Source of the DNA: Syntrophobacter sp. SbD2
Lineage (GTDB): Bacteria; Desulfobacterota; Syntrophobacteria; Syntrophobacterales; Syntrophobacteraceae
Direction of reading: 5' to 3'
NCBI GenBank assembly: GCA_900290385.1
Contig: OMSV01000051.1
Location: 1 to 8,469, forward strand
Length of the DNA stretch: 8,469 nucleotides
In this document: positions 2 to 8,469 of the stretch, one piece after another
How the letters are laid out: every line of letters begins with the position of its first letter
Numbering within the stretch: position 1 is the first letter of the stretch
The notes under the pieces: generated by a model
Seen by the model: only the letters and a program-made list of their open reading frames with translations
The model's database searches: none
What the model was told of the DNA's origin: nothing
Made by a program: the position numbers and the translations under genes

Positions 2-2170
2 GGCCTCAAAATCTCCGCCGGCACTGGAAAATTGCTCAAGAAAGATATGAATGATTTTGTAGACATGCTGCAGTCGAAAATCCCAGAAGTTTTCGACAGC
101 GACGACTACCGCGCCAAAGAAGGCGAAGTGCACCAGGATTTCGAGAAACGGAGGCGGGAGTATATCGACGAACTCTCCCAGGAGGCGCGCGACCAGGGAT
201 TCATTCTTCAGTTCTCCCAGGTTGGTATGGTGATCATTCCCTCCAACAAAGAAGGCGAGCCGATGACGCAGGAGGACCTGCGCCACCTGAGCGAGGAAGA
301 ACGCCAAGTCCTGCGCAGCAAGAGCGATGAGTTGCATGAGCGAATGAAGGACACCATCAAGAAAATCCGAGAGGCAGAAAACGAATTCAAGGAAAAGCAC
401 ACAAAGCTCGACAACGAGATTGCTCTATTCGTGGTTGGACAGTTGATGGATGTTTACGAGGAAAAATACCAGGACGACCAGCAGGTGCTCGACTACCTGA
501 AGGAAGTCCAAGAAGACATTCTCGAAAATATAGACGATTTCAAGAAAAAGCCCGAAGCCCAGCAACAGATGCCGGGACAGCCCGTAGCTCCTTTTGCCGT
601 GCCTCCCAAGGAAGCTACCCTGCGCAAGTACGATGTTAATGTTCTCATCGATAACTCGGAAACCAAGGGTGCTCCGGTTATCATCGAGTCGAATCCGGCC
701 TATCCCAACCTTTTCGGCTCCATAGAAAGGCAGGCTTGGTTTGGAGCGCTGTTTACAGATCATACGATGATAAAAGCCGGATCGCTTCACAAGGCCAACG
801 GCGGCTATCTGGTGATGAAGGCGCTCGACCTTCTTAAATGGTATATTTCTTATGAAGCTTTAAAAAGGGCGCTGCGTGACAAAGAAATCAGGATCGAAGA
901 CCTGGGCGAACTCTACGGAATGTTTAGCACACGCACGATCCGGCCCGAGCCCATTCCCCTTAATTTAAAGATCGTCCTTACCGGCGATCCCTATATCTAC
1001 CAATTGCTCTACAGCCTTGACGATCGCTTCCAGAAGCTTTTCAAGGTCAAGGCCCACATGGGCGACCAGATGGACAGAAAGCCCGACAGGGTCCTCGAAT
1101 GCTCGAGGATGATCGCCCGCTACTGCGACGACCACCAGATAAAGCACCTGGACAAATCGGGAGTCGCCCGTGTGCTCGAATACAGCGTGGAGCTAACCGA
1201 GGACCAAGATAAGCTCACTCTTGAGCTTGGGACCATCGCTGACCTGCTTCGAGAATCCAATTACTTTGCCGGCATCGAGAGCAGCGAAGTTGTTCAGAGA
1301 AAGCACGTGGATGAGGCGATCAAGAAGCGTATCTATCGCTCCAACCTCATCGAAGAGCGTGTGAAGGAGGTAATGGAAAAAGACATCATCTGGATCGAAA
1401 CCGAAGGTGAAAAGGTCGGGCAGGTTAACGGCCTTGCGGTGCTGATGGCAGGTGATCACGTTTTTGGCAAGCCCAGCCGGATCACGGCAACCGTTTCGGT
1501 TGGACGCGAGGGGATGGTGTCCATCGACCGCGAATCGAAAATGAGCGGCGTTACGCATACCAAGGGGCTGATGATTTTAAGCAGCCTTTTCAGGGAGCGG
1601 TTTGCCCAAAACAAGCCCATAGCCTTCTCCGCCTCGGTGTGCTTTGAGCAAAGCTACGGAATGATTGATGGAGACAGCGCTTCGAGCACTGAATACTATG
1701 TCCTTGTCAGCGCCATCAGTGGTTTGCCCTTGAAACAGGGTATAGCTGTAACAGGATCGGTCAGCCAGAAGGGTGAGGTTCAGCCGATCGGGGGCGTGAA
1801 CTACAAGATCAAGGGCTTTTTCGACATCTGCAAATTCAAAGGACTCACGGGCGAACAGGGCGTCATGATTCCGCACAAGAACGTCCGCAACCTGATGCTT
1901 GACCAGGAAGTAGTAGATGCAGTCACCGAAGGCAAGTTCCACATCTGGCCTGTCGCCACGGTTGAGGAAGGCCTGGGTATCCTTACGGGAATGGATGCCG
2001 GCACGGTCCAGGAGGATGGAAGTTATCCGGAAGCCACCGTCTACAGGAAAGTTGACGATAGGCTCAAGGAGATTTCTGAAATCGTACGCAAGTTCTCCAA
2101 AGATATGGAAGGCGACGGCAAAAAGTCCGAAGAGGATGAAGGTTCGAGCTGCCCTCACTGCGGGCATTAA
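2..2170 (+). CDS. ATP-dependent Lon-like protease (LonB/AAA_32 type), 5' end outside window
   Basis: Cytoplasmic ATP-driven serine protease of the Lon superfamily (S16), the bacterial Lon-like type with an AAA_32 module. The frame is open from base 2 with no stop, so the true start and the Walker A region lie upstream; a TTG at 32 is only an internal codon. Seen in order: a helical, charged coiled-coil insert (about 60-540); the AAA core with GGYLVMKALDLL (800-835) and the segment EALKRALRDKEIRIEDLGE; a lid region; then the C-terminal protease domain (about 1370-2030). The catalytic serine is in DGDSAS (Ser codon 1676-1678) and the lysine in GGVNYK (Lys codon 1805-1807). They lie 43 residues apart, the same spacing as Ser679/Lys722 of E. 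coli Lon, so the protease should be active. The protein ends in an acidic tail closing with CPHCGH. It is followed by a terminator and is probably not co-transcribed with the kdp regulators. Family call sure; substrate unknown. Confidence 0.93.
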   Translation, partial: GLKISAGTGKLLKKDMNDFVDMLQSKIPEVFDSDDYRAKEGEVHQDFEKRRREYIDELSQEARDQGFILQFSQVGMVIIPSNKEGEPMTQEDLRHLSEEERQVLRSKSDELHERMKDTIKKIREAENEFKEKHTKLDNEIALFVVGQLMDVYEEKYQDDQQVLDYLKEVQEDILENIDDFKKKPEAQQQMPGQPVAPFAVPPKEATLRKYDVNVLIDNSETKGAPVIIESNPAYPNLFGSIERQAWFGALFTDHTMIKAGSLHKANGGYLVMKALDLLKWYISYEALKRALRDKEIRIEDLGELYGMFSTRTIRPEPIPLNLKIVLTGDPYIYQLLYSLDDRFQKLFKVKAHMGDQMDRKPDRVLECSRMIARYCDDHQIKHLDKSGVARVLEYSVELTEDQDKLTLELGTIADLLRESNYFAGIESSEVVQRKHVDEAIKKRIYRSNLIEERVKEVMEKDIIWIETEGEKVGQVNGLAVLMAGDHVFGKPSRITATVSVGREGMVSIDRESKMSGVTHTKGLMILSSLFRERFAQNKPIAFSASVCFEQSYGMIDGDSASSTEYYVLVSAISGLPLKQGIAVTGSVSQKGEVQPIGGVNYKIKGFFDICKFKGLTGEQGVMIPHKNVRNLMLDQEVVDAVTEGKFHIWPVATVEEGLGILTGMDAGTVQEDGSYPEATVYRKVDDRLKEISEIVRKFSKDMEGDGKKSEEDEGSSCPHCGH

Positions 2171-2227
2171 AAAAGCTGGTCTGCCAGGGATCTCTTTGAA
2201 AGCCTGGCGATAGCGAAACGAATCCCG

Positions 2228-2254
2228 AAGGGCGGCTGATCACCGCCCTTTTTT
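2228..2254 (+). terminator. Rho-independent terminator after the Lon-like gene
   Basis: A perfect 8-bp stem AAGGGCGG/CCGCCCTT with a 7-base loop (CTGATCA) runs straight into six T's (2249-2254). It lies 58 bases after the protease stop codon. It should end the protease transcript and insulate the response-regulator gene, which then needs its own promoter somewhere in 2255-2419. I could not identify that promoter with confidence. Confidence 0.88.
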
Positions 2255-2419
2255 GGCGCCTTATGGCCAACATCAAACAACCTCTTATCCGGATTATCGA
2301 CATCAATCATTGGAAGAGGGTAAACTTACGGGCCGTTCCGATCGAGCGCGGCTGCAAGGTGGAAGGCTTTGAGAGCATCTTGCACTCCGTCATCCTGCTT
2401 ATTTGATTGAAGTACTAAC

Positions 2420-3778
2420 ATGGGAACAAATGTGAGCAGCGCATTGGCCCTTTCCATTCTTGTCGTCGATGATGAACCCAATATCCGGAAGACCCTCAGT
2501 ATCGCTCTGGAGGCCGATGGCCATCATGTTTTAACCGTAAGCAGCCCGAAAGATGCGTTGTCTGAGGCCAATACGCGCTATTTCGACCTTGCTCTGGTTG
2601 ATCTCCGGCTGGGCTCGGAGTCCGGAATAGACTTGATCGGCAATCTACTGGCGATCTGCCCGTGGATTAAGTGCATCGTTATTACGGCTTATGCTTCGAT
2701 TGATACCGCTGTGGAAGCAATGCGGCGCGGAGCCTTTGATTACCTGCCCAAGCCTTTCACTAACGATCAGTTATCGGTGCTTGTCAACAAGGTTTCAGTG
2801 GTCAGGACCCTGGAGCAAAAAGTGGCGTCCCTTCAGGAAAGTCTGAGAGAATCAGTTCCCGAGGCGGTCGTCGAGAGCCGCAGCCCTTTGATGCAGCGGG
2901 TTTTGGCCATGGCCAGGCAAGTGGCGGACAGTGAAGCCACCATCCTGATTCGTGGTGAGAGCGGGACCGGCAAAACCATTCTAGCTCATGCAATACACTC
3001 ATGGAGCGGCCGTTCGTCAAAACCTTTCGGGAATATTTCGTGTCCTTCACTCTCAGCCGAACTGCTTGAAAGCGAGCTTTTCGGGCATGCTAAGGGGTCC
3101 TTTACCGGTGCTCTGCGCGATTATCCCGGACGCATTGCGGCCTGTGACGGGGGGACGCTTTTTTTGGATGAAATCGGGGATTTGCCACTGTCGATCCAGG
3201 CCAAATTATTGCGGGTACTCCAGGAAAAAGCCTACGAGCGTCTGGGGGATTTGGAAACAAGAAAGGCCAATGTTAGAGTCTTGGCGGCTACCAATATCGA
3301 TCTTGATTCGGCAGTAAAGACGGGGCGGTTTCGTGAGGACCTTTTCTACAGGCTTGATGTCGTAGAGATTGTGATTCCTGCGCTTAGAGAGCGCCGTGAG
3401 GACATTGTGCCGCTGGCCGAGGTCCTTCTGGCCTTTTTTGCCAGGCAGAACCATCGCCGGGTACTGGGATTTACCGAGGAAGCCTCTGAAGCCCTCGAGA
3501 ATTACGAATGGCCCGGCAATGTGAGGGAACTCCGAAACGCGATCGAACGTGCGGTGCTGTTGTGTAGTGACGATAGGGTCGGAATTCACCACTTTCCGCT
3601 CAAGCTCAAGCCGTTGGAACGCGTGCCCGGCCCCGGCGGCCTGGTAACCATGGAAGAGCTTGAAAGAACGCACATCCGGCGCGTACTGGCTTCTAGCAGA
3701 TCCATTGAAGAAGCATGCCGGATTTTGGGAATGGATTCCGTGACTTTTTGGCGAAAACGAAAGAAATATGGATTATAA
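2420..3778 (+). CDS. Sigma-54-dependent response regulator, NtrC family, AlgB-like
   Basis: Cytoplasmic transcription activator that, once phosphorylated, uses ATP to open sigma-54 promoters. The receiver domain (residues about 12-125) has acidic D17/D18, phospho-acceptor D61, T89 and K111. The AAA+ domain (about 153-390) has Walker A GESGTGKT (179-186), a sigma-54-contact loop reading GSFTGA (226-231) instead of the usual GAFTGA, and Walker B GGTLFLDE (244-251). The Fis-type HTH is at the extreme C-terminus (about 411-452), ending RKRKKYGL. From memory, the receiver start, the CPSLSAELLESELFGH stretch and this C-terminus match Pseudomonas AlgB closely. Length (452 aa) is normal for the family. 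The ATG start puts the receiver about 10 residues in, as in AlgB; the ribosome site is weak (GAAG, 2409-2412). The kinase gene lies 172 bp downstream, behind a sigma-54 promoter, so the two form a likely pair acting on the kdp genes. The domain call is sure; the target is inferred. Confidence 0.95.
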   Translation: MGTNVSSALALSILVVDDEPNIRKTLSIALEADGHHVLTVSSPKDALSEANTRYFDLALVDLRLGSESGIDLIGNLLAICPWIKCIVITAYASIDTAVEAMRRGAFDYLPKPFTNDQLSVLVNKVSVVRTLEQKVASLQESLRESVPEAVVESRSPLMQRVLAMARQVADSEATILIRGESGTGKTILAHAIHSWSGRSSKPFGNISCPSLSAELLESELFGHAKGSFTGALRDYPGRIAACDGGTLFLDEIGDLPLSIQAKLLRVLQEKAYERLGDLETRKANVRVLAATNIDLDSAVKTGRFREDLFYRLDVVEIVIPALRERREDIVPLAEVLLAFFARQNHRRVLGFTEEASEALENYEWPGNVRELRNAIERAVLLCSDDRVGIHHFPLKLKPLERVPGPGGLVTMEELERTHIRRVLASSRSIEEACRILGMDSVTFWRKRKKYGL

Positions 3779-3784
3779 ATTTGG

Positions 3785-3801
3785 CATTTCATTTTGAAAT
3801 G
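3785..3801. promoter_or_regulatory. Putative activator-binding dyad 1 (upstream enhancer)
   Basis: A perfect inverted repeat, CATTTCA-TTT-TGAAATG, centred at 3793, about 139 bp upstream of the start predicted from the sigma-54 promoter. Its core TTCATTTTGAAA (3788-3799) recurs with one change at 3820-3831. No T-run follows, so it is not a good terminator for the regulator gene. It is probably a binding site for the Fis-type HTH of the adjacent NtrC-family regulator; that assignment is inference. Confidence 0.6.
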
Positions 3802-3819
3802 TCTTCAACGAACTCATCC

Positions 3820-3831
3820 TTCAATTTGAAA
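3820..3831. promoter_or_regulatory. Putative activator-binding dyad 2 (upstream enhancer)
   Basis: TTCAATTTGAAA contains the perfect dyad TTCAA-T-TTGAA, centred at 3825, about 107 bp upstream of the predicted start. It is 11/12 identical to the core of the dyad at 3788-3799. The centres are 32 bp apart, about three helical turns, so both would face the same side of the DNA. An AT-rich stretch (about 3853-3903) lies between it and the promoter and could bend easily, but I see no clean IHF site. Confidence 0.55.
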
Positions 3832-3904
3832 GCGTCCAGCTTGCCCCCACCCGGTAATTTTTAGCTAAGCTCTTGAAATCGCATAATTTAGTTTTATTTT
3901 GCCA

Positions 3905-3920
3905 TTGGCATGTGATTTGC
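3905..3920 (+). promoter_or_regulatory. Sigma-54 (-24/-12) promoter of the kinase-kdp operon
   Basis: TTGGCATGTGATTTGC carries the invariant GG (3907-3908) and GC (3919-3920) with exactly 10 bases between them, close to the consensus TGGCAC-N5-TTGC. The predicted start is near 3932, leaving a leader of about 19 bases before the GTG at 3951. Two matching dyads lie at enhancer distance, and the gene just upstream encodes a sigma-54 activator, which makes a chance match unlikely. Confidence 0.85.
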
Positions 3921-3950
3921 CTTCAGAATTCAGAAGAAGGGTAAAGGGAC

Positions 3951-5792
3951 GTGAGTCTAAAAACAAAACTGATCCTGGCTTCGTGCGGTCCACTTCTTAT
4001 TCTTTTGGTGGTGGGTCTAATAAGCATCCGGACCATCACCCAGTCAAGCAAGGCTCTCGAGCGGATTTTCAGAGAAAACTACGACAGTGTAGCTGCGGGG
4101 CTGGCGATGAAGCAGGCAATCCTGGAAATTGAGCGTGGCGTTGAGCCGCTTCTTTACGAAAGCAGTGCTGACAAGACGATTATTGACTCTGCCGTTCTGA
4201 GGTTTTCGCAAAGGCTGAAATTCCTGAAGGGCAATGTCACTCTGCCTGGCGAACACGAATTAACGAACAGACTGGCAGAATCCTGGAAAACTTACACGAG
4301 CGAACTGGAAACTTTAGTTCAAATGCAGGAGAGCGGCTCTGCCCGCCGGGATTTTTACAGGGCCAGACTGCTGCCCCAGTCAGACGCGGTCCTCGATGCG
4401 GCACAGCAGATAATTGATATCAACTTGAACAATATAATCTCGGGCGATGGCCAGGTTCGGCAACATGCAACAGAAACAAATCGCGACGTAATAGTGCTGG
4501 TGTTGGCTGGAACAGTGCTGGCGCTGATCTTTGTTATCATTATAGGACCGTCCATACTAAGGCCGATATCCTACCTTACTCGTTCTGTGAAAGAGATTCA
4601 GCAGGGAAACCTCGATCTTGTCGTAAAGGCCAGGTCGGGAGATGAAATCGGCCAACTGGCTTCCGCTTTCAACGATATGACAACGAGCCTGCGTGAATTC
4701 AGACGAACGAACCGCGCACGGCTGATTCGCACTCAGAAGGCGACCCTTTCGGCGCTTAACTCTCTTTCCGACGCTATTATTATCTGCAATCCGGAGGGCG
4801 CCATCGAGCTTTCAAACGATACGGCCGAGCGGTTGTTTGCACTTAAGGCAGGAATGACCATTCAGTCGGTTGAAAATGTGCGGATGGGGGAACTATTCGA
4901 GCGTGCGCGCCACGAGATGCGGCCCATCCGGCTCACAACCTATGATTGGGCTATTCAGGTCTTCAGGGACGGAGAGGAACATTTCTTTTTGCCCGAGGCT
5001 GTCCCGATAATGGACGAGGAAAGACGGCTCACCGGCGTGATGCTCATTCTCTCGGATGTGACCAGGCTGCGCAAGCTTGATGAAGTGAAAAGCGGTCTTA
5101 TTTCGATTGTTTCGCATGAACTCAAGACCCCTCTGACTTCCATTAGACTTGCGGCCCATGCGCTTTTGAATGAAAAACTCGGTCCGCTGAATTCCAAACA
5201 GGCCGAACTTGTCATTGCCGCTCGAGATGACAGCGACCGGCTCTACCGTATCATCGAGAACCTGCTGGACATCGGTCGACTGGAGTCCGGACGCTCCACT
5301 GTCGAGCTTGTTCCGGTGAGCCCGGAACAGGTCCTTCTCAATGTTGTCGAAGACATGAGGCCCTCATATGTCGATCGGGGAGTTTCCCTCGTACTCGACC
5401 TGCCCGGAGATATACCCCAGGTTCTTGCCGACAGGTTGAGGCTGGAGATTGTCTTTGCCAACCTTCTTAGCAATGGTTTGAAATTTACCCCTCCGGGGGG
5501 AGAGGTGAAGATATCGGCACGCTTGAACAACGGTACAGTGCTTTTTTCCGTCGAGGATACCGGCTCTGGAATACCCAAGGAGTCCCTGCCGCACATCTTT
5601 GAAAAGTTTTTCAGGGTGCCCGGCCGCGGCGGGCAGCCGAGCAACACCGGACTGGGTTTGGCCATAGTGAAGGAGATCATAGAGGCCCACGGCAGTAGGG
5701 TAGAGGTGGCCAGCACGCCCGGGGAAGGCACGAAATTTAGTTTTACTCTTGCCGCTGCAGGCGGGGTTTCCAGCGATATGAAGGCTTCATGA
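3951..5792 (+). CDS. Membrane sensor histidine kinase (HAMP-PAS-HisKA-HATPase), KinB-like
   Basis: Inner-membrane sensor kinase, the probable partner of the AlgB-like regulator encoded just upstream. Order: TM1 (residues about 7-26); a periplasmic, mostly helical sensor region (about 29-178); TM2 (about 180-203); HAMP (about 204-256); PAS (about 265-375); HisKA with SHELKTPL and phospho-acceptor H389; HATPase_c with N-box NLLSNGLKF (504-512), G1 DTGSG (536-540), the FEKFF segment and G2 GLGLA (567-571). All catalytic boxes are intact and 613 aa is normal. The GTG start is fixed by an in-frame TAA at 3942-3944; purine-rich sites AGAAGAAGG (3932-3940) and AAAGGG (3943-3948) precede it. HisKA resembles Pseudomonas KinB (memory, not alignment). 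It has none of the large cytoplasmic KdpD/Usp N-terminal region of the classical potassium sensor KdpD, so a different input is expected. It lies 86 bp before the small genes of the kdp operon with no terminator between. Confidence 0.94.
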   Translation: MSLKTKLILASCGPLLILLVVGLISIRTITQSSKALERIFRENYDSVAAGLAMKQAILEIERGVEPLLYESSADKTIIDSAVLRFSQRLKFLKGNVTLPGEHELTNRLAESWKTYTSELETLVQMQESGSARRDFYRARLLPQSDAVLDAAQQIIDINLNNIISGDGQVRQHATETNRDVIVLVLAGTVLALIFVIIIGPSILRPISYLTRSVKEIQQGNLDLVVKARSGDEIGQLASAFNDMTTSLREFRRTNRARLIRTQKATLSALNSLSDAIIICNPEGAIELSNDTAERLFALKAGMTIQSVENVRMGELFERARHEMRPIRLTTYDWAIQVFRDGEEHFFLPEAVPIMDEERRLTGVMLILSDVTRLRKLDEVKSGLISIVSHELKTPLTSIRLAAHALLNEKLGPLNSKQAELVIAARDDSDRLYRIIENLLDIGRLESGRSTVELVPVSPEQVLLNVVEDMRPSYVDRGVSLVLDLPGDIPQVLADRLRLEIVFANLLSNGLKFTPPGGEVKISARLNNGTVLFSVEDTGSGIPKESLPHIFEKFFRVPGRGGQPSNTGLGLAIVKEIIEAHGSRVEVASTPGEGTKFSFTLAAAGGVSSDMKAS

Positions 5793-5878
5793 TAGATAGG
5801 GCTGCACCGCTGGAGCAAACAGATGGGAAACACACTAGGATGTGATTTAAGGACTTTTTCCGAGAGGAGGAATAAGAG

Positions 5879-5974
5879 ATGGATTTAGCAATATGGTTGC
5901 CGGGGATGTTCTTACTGGGAATCGTGGTGATGGTAGTCTGCTTTCTGTTCGTAAAAGGTTGCGACAAAATATAA
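5879..5974 (+). CDS. 31-residue single-TM protein upstream of kdpF
   Basis: A tiny open frame of 31 codons plus stop: MDLAIW start, a hydrophobic span (residues about 4-25) containing LPGMFLLG, and a short polar end KGCDKI. It has a very strong ribosome site, AGAGGAGG (5863-5870), eight bases before the ATG, which is the best evidence that it is translated. It sits 18 bp before kdpF. From memory, similar mini-proteins ending in C-D-[KR]-[ILV] occur just before kdpF in many bacteria, often loosely labelled as potassium-transport ATPase; their role is not known to me. It probably sits in the inner membrane with the Kdp complex, as KdpF does. Confidence is high that it is a gene and low for any function. 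Confidence 0.75.
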   Translation: MDLAIWLPGMFLLGIVVMVVCFLFVKGCDKI

Positions 5975-5992
5975 CGCAAAGGAGTTCAAGCG

Positions 5993-6073
5993 ATGATCTA
6001 CATTACAGCGGCTGTCGCAGTTTTTCTTTTTGTTTATCTTACTGTTGCCATGATACGGCCGGAGTGGTTCTAG
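5993..6073 (+). CDS. kdpF: Potassium-transporting ATPase subunit KdpF
   Basis: A 26-residue single-TM peptide that in E. coli binds and stabilises the KdpABC complex. Sequence support: hydrophobic span (residues about 4-20) followed by the family ending, here YLTVAMIRPEWF, close to the usual YLxxAL-IRPExF. The ribosome site AAAGGAG (5978-5984) is eight bases before the ATG, the same layout as for kdpB. Its stop codon TAG lies inside the left copy of the CTAGGCAAG repeat that borders the foldback element, so the insertion did not change the protein. Length is normal (about 25-30 aa). Confidence 0.9.
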   Translation: MIYITAAVAVFLFVYLTVAMIRPEWF

Positions 6074-6221
6074 GCAAGTTTCCGTCCGGACAGGGTCCTT
6101 TTCCGCCCTGGCGGTGTCAATCTTCGGGCTTTCTTGTGCGGCGTACCCATGTACGCCTCCGCGCAAGCCCTGGATTTCCTTGCCAGAACGAAAAATACCT
6201 CCTATCCGAATCGGAAACTGC
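6074..6221. repeat. Long imperfect inverted repeat (hairpin) in the kdpF-kdpA gap
   Basis: The left arm (6074-6146) aligns with the reverse complement of the right arm (6151-6221) over about 70 bases. Shared blocks are AGTTTCCG, CGGA-AGG, TTTT-CG, CTGGC, GGGCTT, GCGG and CGTAC. The tip is GCGTAC-CCAT-GTACGC (6141-6156), a 6-bp stem with a 4-base loop. Transcribed, it would form a tall structured hairpin between the kdpF and kdpA messages. There is no T-run after it, so it is not an obvious terminator, but it could alter mRNA stability or the kdpF/kdpA ratio. Confidence 0.85.
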
Positions 6222-6252
6222 AAGAGTCTCATCCGGTGTCTCCGAATGGACA
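6079..6252. mobile_element. Probable miniature foldback element (MITE-like) between kdpF and kdpA
   Basis: A 174-bp non-coding stretch bordered by two exact copies of CTAGGCAAG (6070-6078 and 6253-6261), as a 9-bp target duplication would be. Its ends are imperfect inverted repeats: TTTCCGTCCGGACA at the left against TGTCCATTCGGAGA read from the right on the other strand (10 of 14 match). Most of it folds back on itself (6074-6221, listed separately). Removing the element with one copy of the repeat leaves 40 bp between kdpF and kdpA, a normal operon spacing. There is no transposase, so it would be moved in trans. Open frames across it are not convincing genes. A 9-bp direct repeat could arise by chance in a region this size (very roughly one in ten), so the exact borders are less certain than the foldback itself. 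Confidence 0.6.
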
Positions 6253-6296
6253 CTAGGCAAGCCCCGGCGATTCACCGATCGTGAAAGGAAAAACAC

Positions 6297-8129
6297 ATGA
6301 CGTTTATTCAGGTATGGTTGCTACCTATAGCACTTCTTGTAACGGCCACGGTCATTGCGTTCCCGTTGAGCCGTTACATGGTATGGATTATGGATGGAAA
6401 ATACCGGCCCTGGCCGGTTTTCCGCTGGTTCGAACAGCGACTGGACAGCGGTGAACAAGACTGGAAACAGTATCTATTCGCGCTGCTCCTGTTCAATACC
6501 CTGATGTTCGTGTACACCTTCCTGGTTCTGGCGGTCCAGCCCTATACGCCGCTAAACCCAAGAGGGCTTACGATGATAGCGCCGAGCACCATTTTTAACA
6601 CCGTCGCCTCATTTATTACGAACACCAACCTCCAGCACTATTCGGGAGACCAGCACCTGTCGAACTTCAGCCAGATTTTTTTCGGGATTTTTAATCTTTT
6701 TTTCTCGGCGGCTGTAGGCCTGTGCGCGCTGGTTGCCATCATCCGCGCCCTGCGGGGCGAATCAAAGGTCGGCAACTTCTTCGTCGATATGTGGCGGGTT
6801 GTGGTTTACATGTTCGTGCCTACCGCGCTCATATTCGGCCTCATTTTCATAACCCAGGGCAGCCCGATGACCTTCGAAACCTCGCACGATGTCACGACGG
6901 TTGAAGCGGGGGCGATGGGCACGACCGACACGGGCGAGGCGAAACCGCAGACGATTATCGTTGGGCCGGTCGCGGCCTGGGAATCCATGAAAATGCTGGG
7001 CACCAACGGGGGCGGGTTCTATGGCATGAACTCGGCCCACCCGTTCGAAAATCCGACGGGTTTGTCGAATTTCTTCAACACCTATGCGATGATGATGTTC
7101 CCGTTTGGTCTGGTGTTGATGTTTGGCCGAATGCTGAAAAGGTTCCGGCACTCCCTTGTGGTTTTTTCTGTCATGATGGTCATGATGGCCGGCACAGTCG
7201 TCTGGTCGATCTATTTCGATACTCTCAAGCCTAATCCAGGACTAACCGGACAATCTGTGGAACAGAAGTTCGAAGTCCCCAGTGCGGCATCTCCTGGAGG
7301 AAAGCTTGCAGTGGTTATGCCGGCAGTTCCGAGCTTGCCCGTCGAGCAGCACCTGGGCAATCTCGAGGGAAAAGAGATGCGTTTCGGGACTTCGGCCGGC
7401 GCAACTTTTGACGCCCTGACCACTGACGTGACCTGCGGCGCCGTAAACGCTGAGGAGGACAGCCTGAACCCGGTATCGGCAGCTTCGCCTCTGGCCGGAA
7501 TGTGGCTGAACTGCGTGTACGGCGGTAAAGGCGTGGGCATGATCAACATGTTGACTTTCATCATCGTCGGGATCTTTATCGCAGGCATGATGGTGGGAAG
7601 AACGCCGGAATATCTCGGGAAGAAAATCGGCGCCCGCGAGGTGACATTTGCAATGATCGCCATACTGGTTCATCCCGTCTTTATTCTGTGGCCCACGGGG
7701 CTTTTTGCCGGGACAACCATGGGGATGCAGGCGATAAGCAACGCCGGCGCGCACGGCTTCTCGCAAATCCTTTACCAGTTCTCTTCGGCTACGGCCAATA
7801 ACGGTTCTGCATTCGACGGCCTGGGGGTGACTTACGGTTTCTGGAATGCAACGAGCCCAGGGCCGAGCGCCGTTGCGTTCGACATCGCAGCCGGCCTGTG
7901 CATGCTTTTCGGCCGTTTTCTGCCGATTATCGCGCCCGTTGCCATGGCGGCGTCCCTTGGCGCTAAAAAATCGAGCCCGTTTGGTCTTGGCACGCTTCGG
8001 GATGACAGCATAACGTTCGGTTTTCTCCTGCTGGGGACCGTTGTTATCATCGCTGGATTGCTCTTTTTGCCTGTTGCCGTGCTGGGACCTGTAGCGGAGC
8101 ACTTCGGCCCGATGCCTTTTGGGGGATAA
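6297..8129 (+). CDS. kdpA: Potassium-transporting ATPase subunit KdpA (K+ channel-like subunit)
   Basis: Inner-membrane subunit that selects and binds K+ in the KdpFABC pump. It is built of four channel-like TM-pore-TM repeats, about ten TM spans. The four pore segments are all visible: SFITNTNLQHYSGDQ (TNTN at 108-111, with Q113 at the place of the E. coli selectivity residue Gln116); GTNGGGFYGMN (235-245) with HPFENPTGLSN after it; TCGAVN (379-384, matching E. coli SCGAVN); and GAHGFSQ...ATANNGSAF (NNGS 501-504). GRTPEYLGKKIGAREV follows the third repeat. At 610 aa it is longer than E. coli KdpA (557), largely from extra residues at about 312-365, in the outer loop before the third pore helix. 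The ATG is preceded by AAAGGA (6284-6289). It forms an operon with kdpF and kdpB, with kdpC expected beyond the right edge. Confidence 0.98.
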   Translation: MTFIQVWLLPIALLVTATVIAFPLSRYMVWIMDGKYRPWPVFRWFEQRLDSGEQDWKQYLFALLLFNTLMFVYTFLVLAVQPYTPLNPRGLTMIAPSTIFNTVASFITNTNLQHYSGDQHLSNFSQIFFGIFNLFFSAAVGLCALVAIIRALRGESKVGNFFVDMWRVVVYMFVPTALIFGLIFITQGSPMTFETSHDVTTVEAGAMGTTDTGEAKPQTIIVGPVAAWESMKMLGTNGGGFYGMNSAHPFENPTGLSNFFNTYAMMMFPFGLVLMFGRMLKRFRHSLVVFSVMMVMMAGTVVWSIYFDTLKPNPGLTGQSVEQKFEVPSAASPGGKLAVVMPAVPSLPVEQHLGNLEGKEMRFGTSAGATFDALTTDVTCGAVNAEEDSLNPVSAASPLAGMWLNCVYGGKGVGMINMLTFIIVGIFIAGMMVGRTPEYLGKKIGAREVTFAMIAILVHPVFILWPTGLFAGTTMGMQAISNAGAHGFSQILYQFSSATANNGSAFDGLGVTYGFWNATSPGPSAVAFDIAAGLCMLFGRFLPIIAPVAMAASLGAKKSSPFGLGTLRDDSITFGFLLLGTVVIIAGLLFLPVAVLGPVAEHFGPMPFGG

Positions 8130-8186
8130 TGGCCGGGAGCATTCATGAAAGCCGATGGAAGTAACGGCATCAGGAAGTACTCACTC

Positions 8187-8193
8187 AAAGGAG
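8187..8193 (+). promoter_or_regulatory. Ribosome binding site fixing the kdpB start
   Basis: AAAGGAG eight bases before the ATG at 8202, the same sequence and spacing as for kdpF. It favours 8202 over an in-frame ATG at 8145, which has a poorer site (GGGAG, 8135-8139) five bases away and would add 19 residues. Confidence 0.7.
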
Positions 8194-8201
8194 TTTCAGA
8201 T

Positions 8202-8469
8202 ATGAGCAAGGTAGTTCCAAATTTTGAAATACCGGTAGGGGAGGCACGGCTGAGTCCGGGGCAGTCTCAGCCGATGCGCCGCGTAAGAGCGCGAAAGCTG
8301 CTGGAAAAGGAGACCGCAATGGTCGCCTTGAAGCAGGCATTTATGATGCTGAGGCCTGACCTCCAGTGGAAAAATCCCGTCATGTTCGTAGTCCTGGTTG
8401 GGGCTGTTCTTACCCTTCTGTACATTGTCGAAGCCGCGTTGGGCGGCGCCACGAGCCAGGTGTCCATTA
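8202..8469 (+). CDS. kdpB: Potassium-transporting P-type ATPase subunit KdpB, 3' end outside window
   Basis: Catalytic P-type ATPase subunit of the KdpFABC potassium pump; only the first 89 codons are in the window. Visible are a polar N-terminal extension, the segment LKQAFMMLRPDLQWKNPVMF (residues 43-62) that matches the entry to TM1 in KdpB (E. coli QWRNPVMF), and the first membrane span (about 59-80). The phosphorylation DKTGT site and the rest lie beyond the edge. About 25 residues more than in E. coli precede the NPVMF motif, so the cytoplasmic N-terminus is long. An alternative in-frame ATG at 8145 would lengthen it further. It lies 72 bp after kdpA. Confidence 0.95.
   Translation, partial: MSKVVPNFEIPVGEARLSPGQSQPMRRVRARKLLEKETAMVALKQAFMMLRPDLQWKNPVMFVVLVGAVLTLLYIVEAALGGATSQVSI

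Follow-up and report, generated by a model that had tools for sequence, protein, structure and literature searches.

Results

A sigma-54 regulator and a 4HB kinase head the kdp genes

The 8,469-nucleotide stretch of Syntrophobacter sp. SbD2 DNA analysed here (contig OMSV01000051.1, hereafter the window) carries the front of a predicted operon for the Kdp potassium pump, preceded by genes for an NtrC-type response regulator and a histidine kinase with an N-terminal four-helix-bundle (4HB) segment (Table 1). Across related genomes this gene pair recurs at kdp loci whose KdpD is short and lacks a kinase core, and a sigma-54 promoter with a phased pair of upstream sites recurs ahead of the kinase. 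The window regulator matches Pfam Response_reg, Sigma54_activat (PF00158, 216 bits), AAA_lid_14 and the Fis-type HTH_8, and its sigma-54 contact loop reads GSFTGA, of the GAFTGA type. The 4HB-type segment of the kinase would form its membrane sensor, with a predicted membrane topology. The start of kdpB lies at 8145 or, judged by eye from the Shine-Dalgarno sequence, likely at 8202; the window stops within this gene, and kdpC, KdpD and the TGES motif of KdpB lie beyond it. No OmpR-type (winged helix-turn-helix) KdpE is found by Pfam in the window, and a simple scan of 2100–6320 listed neither a terminator-like site nor a plus-strand sigma-70-like site between the kinase gene and kdpA.

Table 1. 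Genes and predicted sites in the window.
Feature	Position	Strand	Remarks
LonB-like protease, end	2–2170		Pfam/NCBIfam; upstream of regulator
NtrC-type response regulator	2420–3778	+	REC, sigma-54 AAA+, Fis-type HTH
Candidate upstream activator site 1	3787–3799		TTTCATTTTGAAA; centre of perfect palindrome CATTTCATTTTGAAATG
Candidate upstream activator site 2	3819–3831		CTTCAATTTGAAA; 32 bp from site 1
Predicted sigma-54 −24/−12 promoter	3906–3921	+	TGGCATGTGATTTGCC; ahead of kinase-kdp block
Histidine kinase	3951–5792	+	GTG start; Pfam 4HB_MCP_1, HAMP, PAS, HisKA, HATPase_c
31-residue microprotein	5879–5974	+	Single hydrophobic stretch; immediately 5' of kdpF
kdpF	5993–6073	+	TIGR02115 and PF09604 exceed cut-off
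kdpA	6297–8129	+	610 residues, long clade; PF03814 617 bits; TIGR00680 477 bits (cut-off 387.7)
kdpB, 5' part	8145–8469	+	Cut by window end; TIGR01497 profile positions 5–59, E 6.9e-10

An earlier, sequence-only reading of this DNA had placed an NtrC-family activator and a HAMP-PAS kinase beside kdpF, kdpA and the start of kdpB, and Pfam and NCBIfam confirm these genes. Its sigma-54 promoter at the head of the kinase-kdp block also holds: TGGCAYNNNNNTTGCH occurs without mismatch only once in the window, 29 bp 5' of the kinase start. The label that it gave the pair, AlgB/KinB-like, finds no support. KinB_sensor (which we take to be PF16767) is not among the Pfam matches of the kinase at E ≤ 0.001, where 4HB_MCP_1 is found instead; no solved structure in the PDB resembles the sensor segment by sequence; and the regulator matches generic NtrC relatives in NCBIfam (AtoC, PEP-CTERM, NtrC), the best 25 of 106 matches all lying below cut-off.

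With up to two mismatches the sigma-54 pattern is not enriched in the window (9 matches, 10.9 expected), and a second candidate within the microprotein gene (5886–5902), with two mismatches and at chance level, was rejected. The relative L054 carries TGGCACGTGATTTGCC at the position equivalent to the promoter. Upstream of the promoter the form YTKCA-N3-TGMAR occurs twice; site 1 is also present in L054 and in a second relative, L056, and site 2 lies 87 bp from the −24 box. In sequence, activator sites thus stand 5' of a −24/−12 promoter, the sites and their binding by the regulator being predictions. At up to one mismatch 74 of 200 shuffles of the window equalled or bettered the site matches, and the YTKCANNNTGMAR form was equalled in 3 of 200, having been picked after the sites were known. 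The site matches of the window are weak evidence by themselves, and the case for the paired site therefore rests on the relatives.

KdpD is dismantled in the closest relatives

A scan of genome contigs with KdpA as query gave 66 loci, the closest being L054 from a Syntrophobacteraceae metagenome-assembled genome (MAG), G001, with identities to the window of 94% for KdpA, 89% for the regulator and 90% for the kinase. The gene order of L054 is LonB, regulator, kinase, kdpA (split over two frames in the MAG), kdpB, kdpC, a 433-residue Usp-DUF4118-GAF protein and a KdpD-Usp protein (432 residues, open frame). L056 repeats this order from the regulator onward (79% regulator identity), with KdpD pieces of 433 and 392 residues. 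Pfam finds no HisKA or HATPase domain in these four KdpD-derived proteins, no KdpE is seen beside them in the examined DNA of either locus, and a one-chain KdpD (KdpD-Usp-TM-GAF-kinase, TM denoting the transmembrane part) was not found in either. KdpD is thus dismantled and not replaced outright: what remains is the Walker/Usp half and, in the clade of the window, also a separate Usp-DUF4118-GAF half.

The sequence-only reading had the sigma-54 pair standing instead of KdpD/KdpE, which cannot be read from the window since it ends inside kdpB. In L054 and L056 the claim stands in part, in that KdpE and the kinase core of KdpD are missing beside the pair while KdpD pieces persist; a complete kdpD/kdpE pair 3' of kdpC is not present in either locus.

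Short KdpD goes with the NtrC/4HB pair across the phylum

We screened 395 genomes from the phylum to which G001 belongs for KdpA (PF03814). Of these genomes 85 matched at E ≤ 0.001, 16 of them only weakly and in part, and the 69 genomes with at least 200 bits yielded 71 loci, whose architectures were read with custom hidden Markov models built on seed sequences of the window, E. coli and L004, with a Pfam check on part of the proteins. KdpD is short at 14 loci, short with a C-terminal EIIA tail at 13 and full at 22; 7 have KdpD-Usp-TM-GAF without kinase, one has a fragment and 14 have no KdpD in reach. The survey bears out the pairing seen at the window, as an NtrC regulator and a 4HB kinase lie within about 9 kb at 26 of the 27 short-KdpD loci, with or without EIIA. 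The exception, L130, is a 5.2-kb contig, and one of the 26, L076, also carries a KdpE-type regulator. Both genes together occur at none of the 22 full-KdpD loci, where KdpE is present in 20 (L109 also has an NtrC regulator), neither regulator in two (L088, L094), and an NtrC regulator without KdpE in none. The association of short KdpD with the NtrC/4HB pair exceeds chance (Fisher 4e-12 on 25/1/0/20 for short and full KdpD, the rows being related). An NtrC regulator is also present at 7 of the 14 loci with no KdpD in reach, and the sigma-54 class spans both KdpA clades. Among 246 Planctomycetota genomes, 9 match the kinase at 1e-70, at 11 places if that of the query is counted; in the surrounding pieces of about 4.8 kb, short KdpD lies beside the kinase at 6 of 11 places, all 6 with an NtrC regulator. 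The sigma-54 gene was found in 18 of 18 genomes tested.

A classical KdpD/KdpE system elsewhere in the genome could still control kdp, leaving the sigma-54 pair as a second input. PF02702 was searched in 74 genomes (the 69 and G002–G006) and finds KdpD in every one. G048, G084 and G095 hold, besides short KdpD, a PF02702 frame of 819–908 residues, the KdpE-type regulator of L076 (G291) lies about 6 kb 5' of kdpA, and at L159 (G274) a KdpE-type regulator and kinase lie 2–3 kb from an EIIA-tailed KdpD. In G001, however, the genome closest to the window, the single PF02702 match is short, its other DUF4118 frames having no such match, and we regard this alternative as very improbable for the window.

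Orthologs of the kinase lie mostly at kdp loci

With the window kinase as query in the 74 genomes (17 candidates scored per genome), matches of at least 290 bits occur at 36 places in 35 genomes, the next match scoring 268 bits. Thirty-four of these 36 orthologs adjoin kdpA or short kdpD. The other two lie beside a Usp-DUF4118-GAF gene (G002:C191) and at a contig end (G230:C36), and the kdpA contig of G230 opens with a kinase fragment. Kinases of loci in which kdp comes first (G127, G290 and others) are more distant, at about 170–205 bits, and G262 has none at 1e-40. In a tree of 47 rows the label of the regulators beside the kinase changes 7 times; they do not group cleanly, and we make no claim of a single origin. 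At L086 (421–3798, genome G377) a second 4HB-kinase/NtrC pair, which has a paired site of its own at 1803, adjoins the kdp operon.

A predicted promoter and paired site recur ahead of the kinase

Sites of the −24/−12 type were scored with weights based on the published consensus at a threshold of at least 11, from the longest open reading frame start, so some sites fall at +1 to +40 of the start. Such a site lies 5' of the kinase at 20 of 25 distinct loci and 5' of kdp at 6 of 13 sigma-54-class loci without an upstream kinase; in the KdpE class it occurs at 1 of 22, namely L076, which itself carries the NtrC/4HB pair. Where the kinase is downstream or elsewhere the site stands 5' of kdpF in several loci, good examples among kdp-first loci being L071, L073, L134, L126 and L069.

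The consensus TTKCANNNTGMAA comes from the very loci used for its counts, with full-KdpD loci and shuffles as controls. In 24 pre-kinase regions it occurs exactly in 11 (0.1 expected) and with up to one mismatch in 19 (2.2 expected), and 5' of kdp at 15 other sigma-54-class loci in 3 (0.06 expected) and 9 (1.1 expected). At the 22 full-KdpD loci the corresponding counts are 0 (0.18 expected) and 1 (2.2 expected). Expected values use the same letters, and the regions of L077 (a full-KdpD control) and L127 (in the other set) span most of their contigs. The conserved sites thus exceed chance. Among 20 close pairs (9–59 bp apart), 15 are spaced by 32 bp and one by 31 bp. A pair accompanied by a −24 box occurs at 17 of 40 loci, of which 15 have a spacing of 32 bp and two of 31 bp, promoter distances being measured for pair spacings of 31–33 bp only. 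The second site lies 65–67 bp (3 loci), 75–77 bp (8) or 85–88 bp (6) from the −24 box, so that successive distances differ by roughly a helical turn (R 0.86 at 10.5 bp). The composite of pair and promoter occurs 21 times in 2.31 Mb, with 16 copies ahead of the kinase, one ahead of kdpA (L095) and four elsewhere (L017, L100, L119 on the other strand, L128), and was absent from three shuffled copies, in which base composition but not dinucleotide content was preserved within blocks of 100 bp.

The four composites away from kinase and kdp would fit a pair that controls another process, such as envelope or general stress, with kdp a passenger or minor target. In D. vulgaris, moreover, kdp is a target of several regulators, the stress regulator DVU3305 among them, in the available text of PMC3333781. 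We consider this improbable, as nearly all kinase orthologs adjoin kdpA or short kdpD, a sigma-54 site stands 5' of kdp without an upstream kinase in L001, L071, L073, L095 and L134, and the short-KdpD association is found in both KdpA clades and at the six Planctomycetota places.

Short and EIIA-tailed KdpD

In the available text of PMC11018627, short KdpD is described as an atypical serine kinase that inhibits the pump, and species without KdpE as mostly retaining only the serine-kinase part of KdpD. The short KdpD of L054 and L056 carries GYGPGVGKT-W and LVDEL. Over 49 KdpD rows without a kinase core (45 distinct, 9 of the TM-GAF form), a G-X5-GKT Walker A is present in 48, a Walker B of loose form in 47, an aromatic residue at W39 in 47 and R190 in 48 (W39 and R190 being the adenine pair), and the TGES serine of KdpB is kept in 129 of 129 rows (122 distinct). 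By these motifs the most likely identity of the stand-alone KdpD-Usp is this serine kinase, which would turn the pump off by phosphorylating KdpB at Ser162, presumably also in the organism of the window.

KdpD-Usp with a C-terminal EIIA of the phosphotransferase system (PTS) is found in L004 (16236–17915), L010 (7821–9503), L089, L125, L165 and others, Pfam-checked in L004 only, and all 22 rows, from 20 distinct loci, keep its PH motif. EIIA-Ntr of E. coli acts on KdpD, an input to which the KdpD-EIIA fusion may likewise point.

A c-di-AMP riboswitch (RF00379, 96 bits) lies at 14526–14660 of L054, downstream of the kdp cluster, about 1.4 kb 3' of short KdpD and 5' of an amino-acid-permease-like frame. 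Given this riboswitch and a cyclase in 71 of 74 genomes, control by c-di-AMP is conceivable. In the short KdpD system as described, c-di-AMP stimulates the serine phosphorylation of KdpB. For kdp transcription in short-KdpD species, the available text of PMC11018627 names c-di-AMP for some Bacillota only. The cyclase (DAC) and rpoN were both rejected as class markers.

The kinase may alternatively receive its K+ signal in trans, from Usp-DUF4118-GAF or from EIIA-tailed KdpD, making the sensor a multi-protein assembly and not the 4HB segment. This version of the main explanation, compatible with it, is a tentative one. Usp-DUF4118-GAF without kinase in L054, L056, L064 and L139 speaks for it, as does the retained PH motif of the fusions, while the other short-KdpD loci of the survey show no separate TM-GAF protein and the 4HB segment has invariant residues of its own (E42, N43, Y44, S46, N95, T97, E101 and N158 in 20 aligned kinases). 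A distributed sensor is conceivable at a similarly modest likelihood, in which Usp-DUF4118-GAF would read K+, KdpD-Usp(-EIIA) would read second-messenger or PTS state and inhibit the pump, and one or both would signal in trans to the 4HB kinase as sole driver of transcription through the phased pair and sigma-54. If true, this would be a further Kdp control class beside KdpDE and the c-di-AMP riboswitch.

Other features of the locus

The microprotein, of consensus about MNLxIWLPAMFxLGLxxMGLCYLFxxACEKI, has no Pfam match, no significant NCBIfam match and no known family. It is kept 5' of kdpF in L054, L056, L006 and L004 and precedes 53 of 65 kdpA genes of the long-KdpA clade, against 2 of 73 of the E. 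coli-type clade, both dissimilar. It could possibly be an extra pump subunit. KdpC of the long-KdpA clade is mostly about 338 residues long, against 190 in E. coli (for example L056 14075–15106), and the KdpC profile matches it in two separate stretches flanking an insert.

Between kdpF and kdpA lies a dispersed, strongly folding repeat (about 6077–6255; z −4.1) with 20 matches in G001, of which one is the plain kdp flank. G002 and G003 have no match, and the kdp site of L054 lacks about 175 bp of the repeat. A riboswitch at this place was rejected, as Rfam has no match in the window at the gathering threshold and the stretch is mostly this repeat. In L054, too, a fragment of the LonB-like protease precedes the regulator gene. 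The available text of PMC3333781 counts among the regulators that target kdp in D. vulgaris one with a link to a Lon-like protein.

Discussion

We read the window as the front of a Kdp operon under a dedicated sigma-54 two-component system, with a probability of about 0.8. Low K+, or an accompanying change in envelope or turgor, would turn on the 4HB-HAMP-PAS kinase, which would phosphorylate the NtrC-type regulator. The regulator would assemble on the two palindromic sites, whose 32-bp spacing amounts to about three helical turns, and by looping the DNA on a single face would drive sigma-54 RNA polymerase at the predicted promoter. The transcript would cover the kinase, in positive feedback, the microprotein, kdpF and kdpABC, and by analogy with the relatives would extend over the dismantled KdpD. 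As the regulator gene lies outside this predicted transcript and the kinase gene inside, activation would raise kinase and pump together. The stand-alone KdpD-Usp, no longer a histidine kinase, would switch the pump off, so that with a separate transcription kinase the two jobs of KdpD would be split between unrelated proteins.

Several observations weigh against this interpretation. The evidence on TGES, kdpC and KdpD comes from L054 and L056, beyond the window, and in the window a weak sigma-70-like site (3873–3900, 9/12) stands just 5' of the kinase. A good −24/−12 site is wanting 5' of the kinase in L093, L100, L111 and L136, the last a KdpE locus grouped with the pre-kinase set through a 4HB-like frame, and in L108 it is found only further upstream; outside the class L088 (full KdpD) and L131, among 19 others, score at least 11. 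Pair and promoter were not found together in 23 of the 40 sigma-54-class loci, including kdp-first L069, L072 and L126; most kdp-first loci are without the pair, and the paired site was not found in the Planctomycetota pieces. The L001 regulator lacks the G[AS]xTGA loop, at L086 the NtrC gene adjoins the second 4HB kinase, cyclase and rpoN fail to discriminate the classes, and to these are added the long PF02702 frames and the KdpE-type regulator of L159 described above. Finally, the Fisher and Rayleigh values make related loci look more independent than they are, and their P values are not literal.

In the available text of the serine-kinase paper (PMC11018627) it is not said what turns kdp on in most species without KdpE. 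The sigma-54 pair is a candidate transcriptional half for short-KdpD systems across the phylum-wide sample and in some Planctomycetota, and the paired site is specific enough for a footprinting test and regulon prediction. The KdpD-EIIA fusions and transmitter-less sensor halves are naturally separable parts with which to ask which half of KdpD senses what.

The alternative class of Kdp control is real and coherent, and partly anticipated in Desulfovibrio. The distinct control logic proposed in the sequence-only reading survives in that the NtrC-type pair accompanies kdp repeatedly; a potassium link was already known. Rajeev 2011 (PMC3333781) mapped the sigma-54 regulator DVU3334 of D. vulgaris to kdpFABC and described the kinase as split. 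The same paper noted that D. vulgaris Miyazaki and S. fumaroxidans have orthologs and that the motif is conserved there, and Kazakov 2015 (PMC4641369) listed DVU3334 as a sigma-54 activator of potassium uptake, both as far as their available text goes. In the open-access literature searched, most subscription papers lying outside it, we found no description of how general the rule is or of its link with short KdpD, nor of the phased paired site, the EIIA fusions or the transmitter-less sensor halves.

The DVU3334/DVU3335/DVU3336-kdpFABC system of D. vulgaris Hildenborough resembles the window class in having an NtrC-type sigma-54 regulator, there mapped to its own kdpFABC, and resembles the relatives of the window in that the KdpD sensor half is on its own open reading frame. 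Its order by locus-tag numbers is kdp, sensor half, kinase, regulator, whereas that of the window is regulator, kinase, kdp. In L126, where the genes run as in D. vulgaris, the regulator is divergent (end branch 1.75), no kinase matches at 1e-40 and no paired site is found, and the available text of the D. vulgaris accounts (PMC3333781, PMC4641369) is without a 4HB kinase, the 32-bp pair or a general rule. The single site here may coincide with the published DVU3334 motif.

E. coli KdpD/KdpE shares with the window two-component control adjoining kdpFABC, but there KdpE is of the OmpR type and KdpD includes a kinase core; beside kdp in L054 and L056 neither such a KdpE nor such a KdpD is found. 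AlgB/KinB of Pseudomonas likewise joins an NtrC-type regulator to a membrane sensor kinase, with a different target, and the window kinase is without a KinB_sensor match. In Deinococcus radiodurans KdpD-N is separate from the sensor kinase and KdpE-like regulator, as in the relatives of the window, but the regulator, 23.9% identical to KdpE, is not NtrC-type (PMC5716572, in its available text). The closest counterpart to the KdpD of the relatives is the short KdpD serine kinase, likewise KdpD plus Usp without a kinase core, with Walker A, the TGES serine and KdpE mostly absent; to that system, as set out in the available text of PMC11018627, the loci described here add the sigma-54 pair as candidate regulator and the EIIA-tailed and Usp-TM-GAF-only proteins as further forms.

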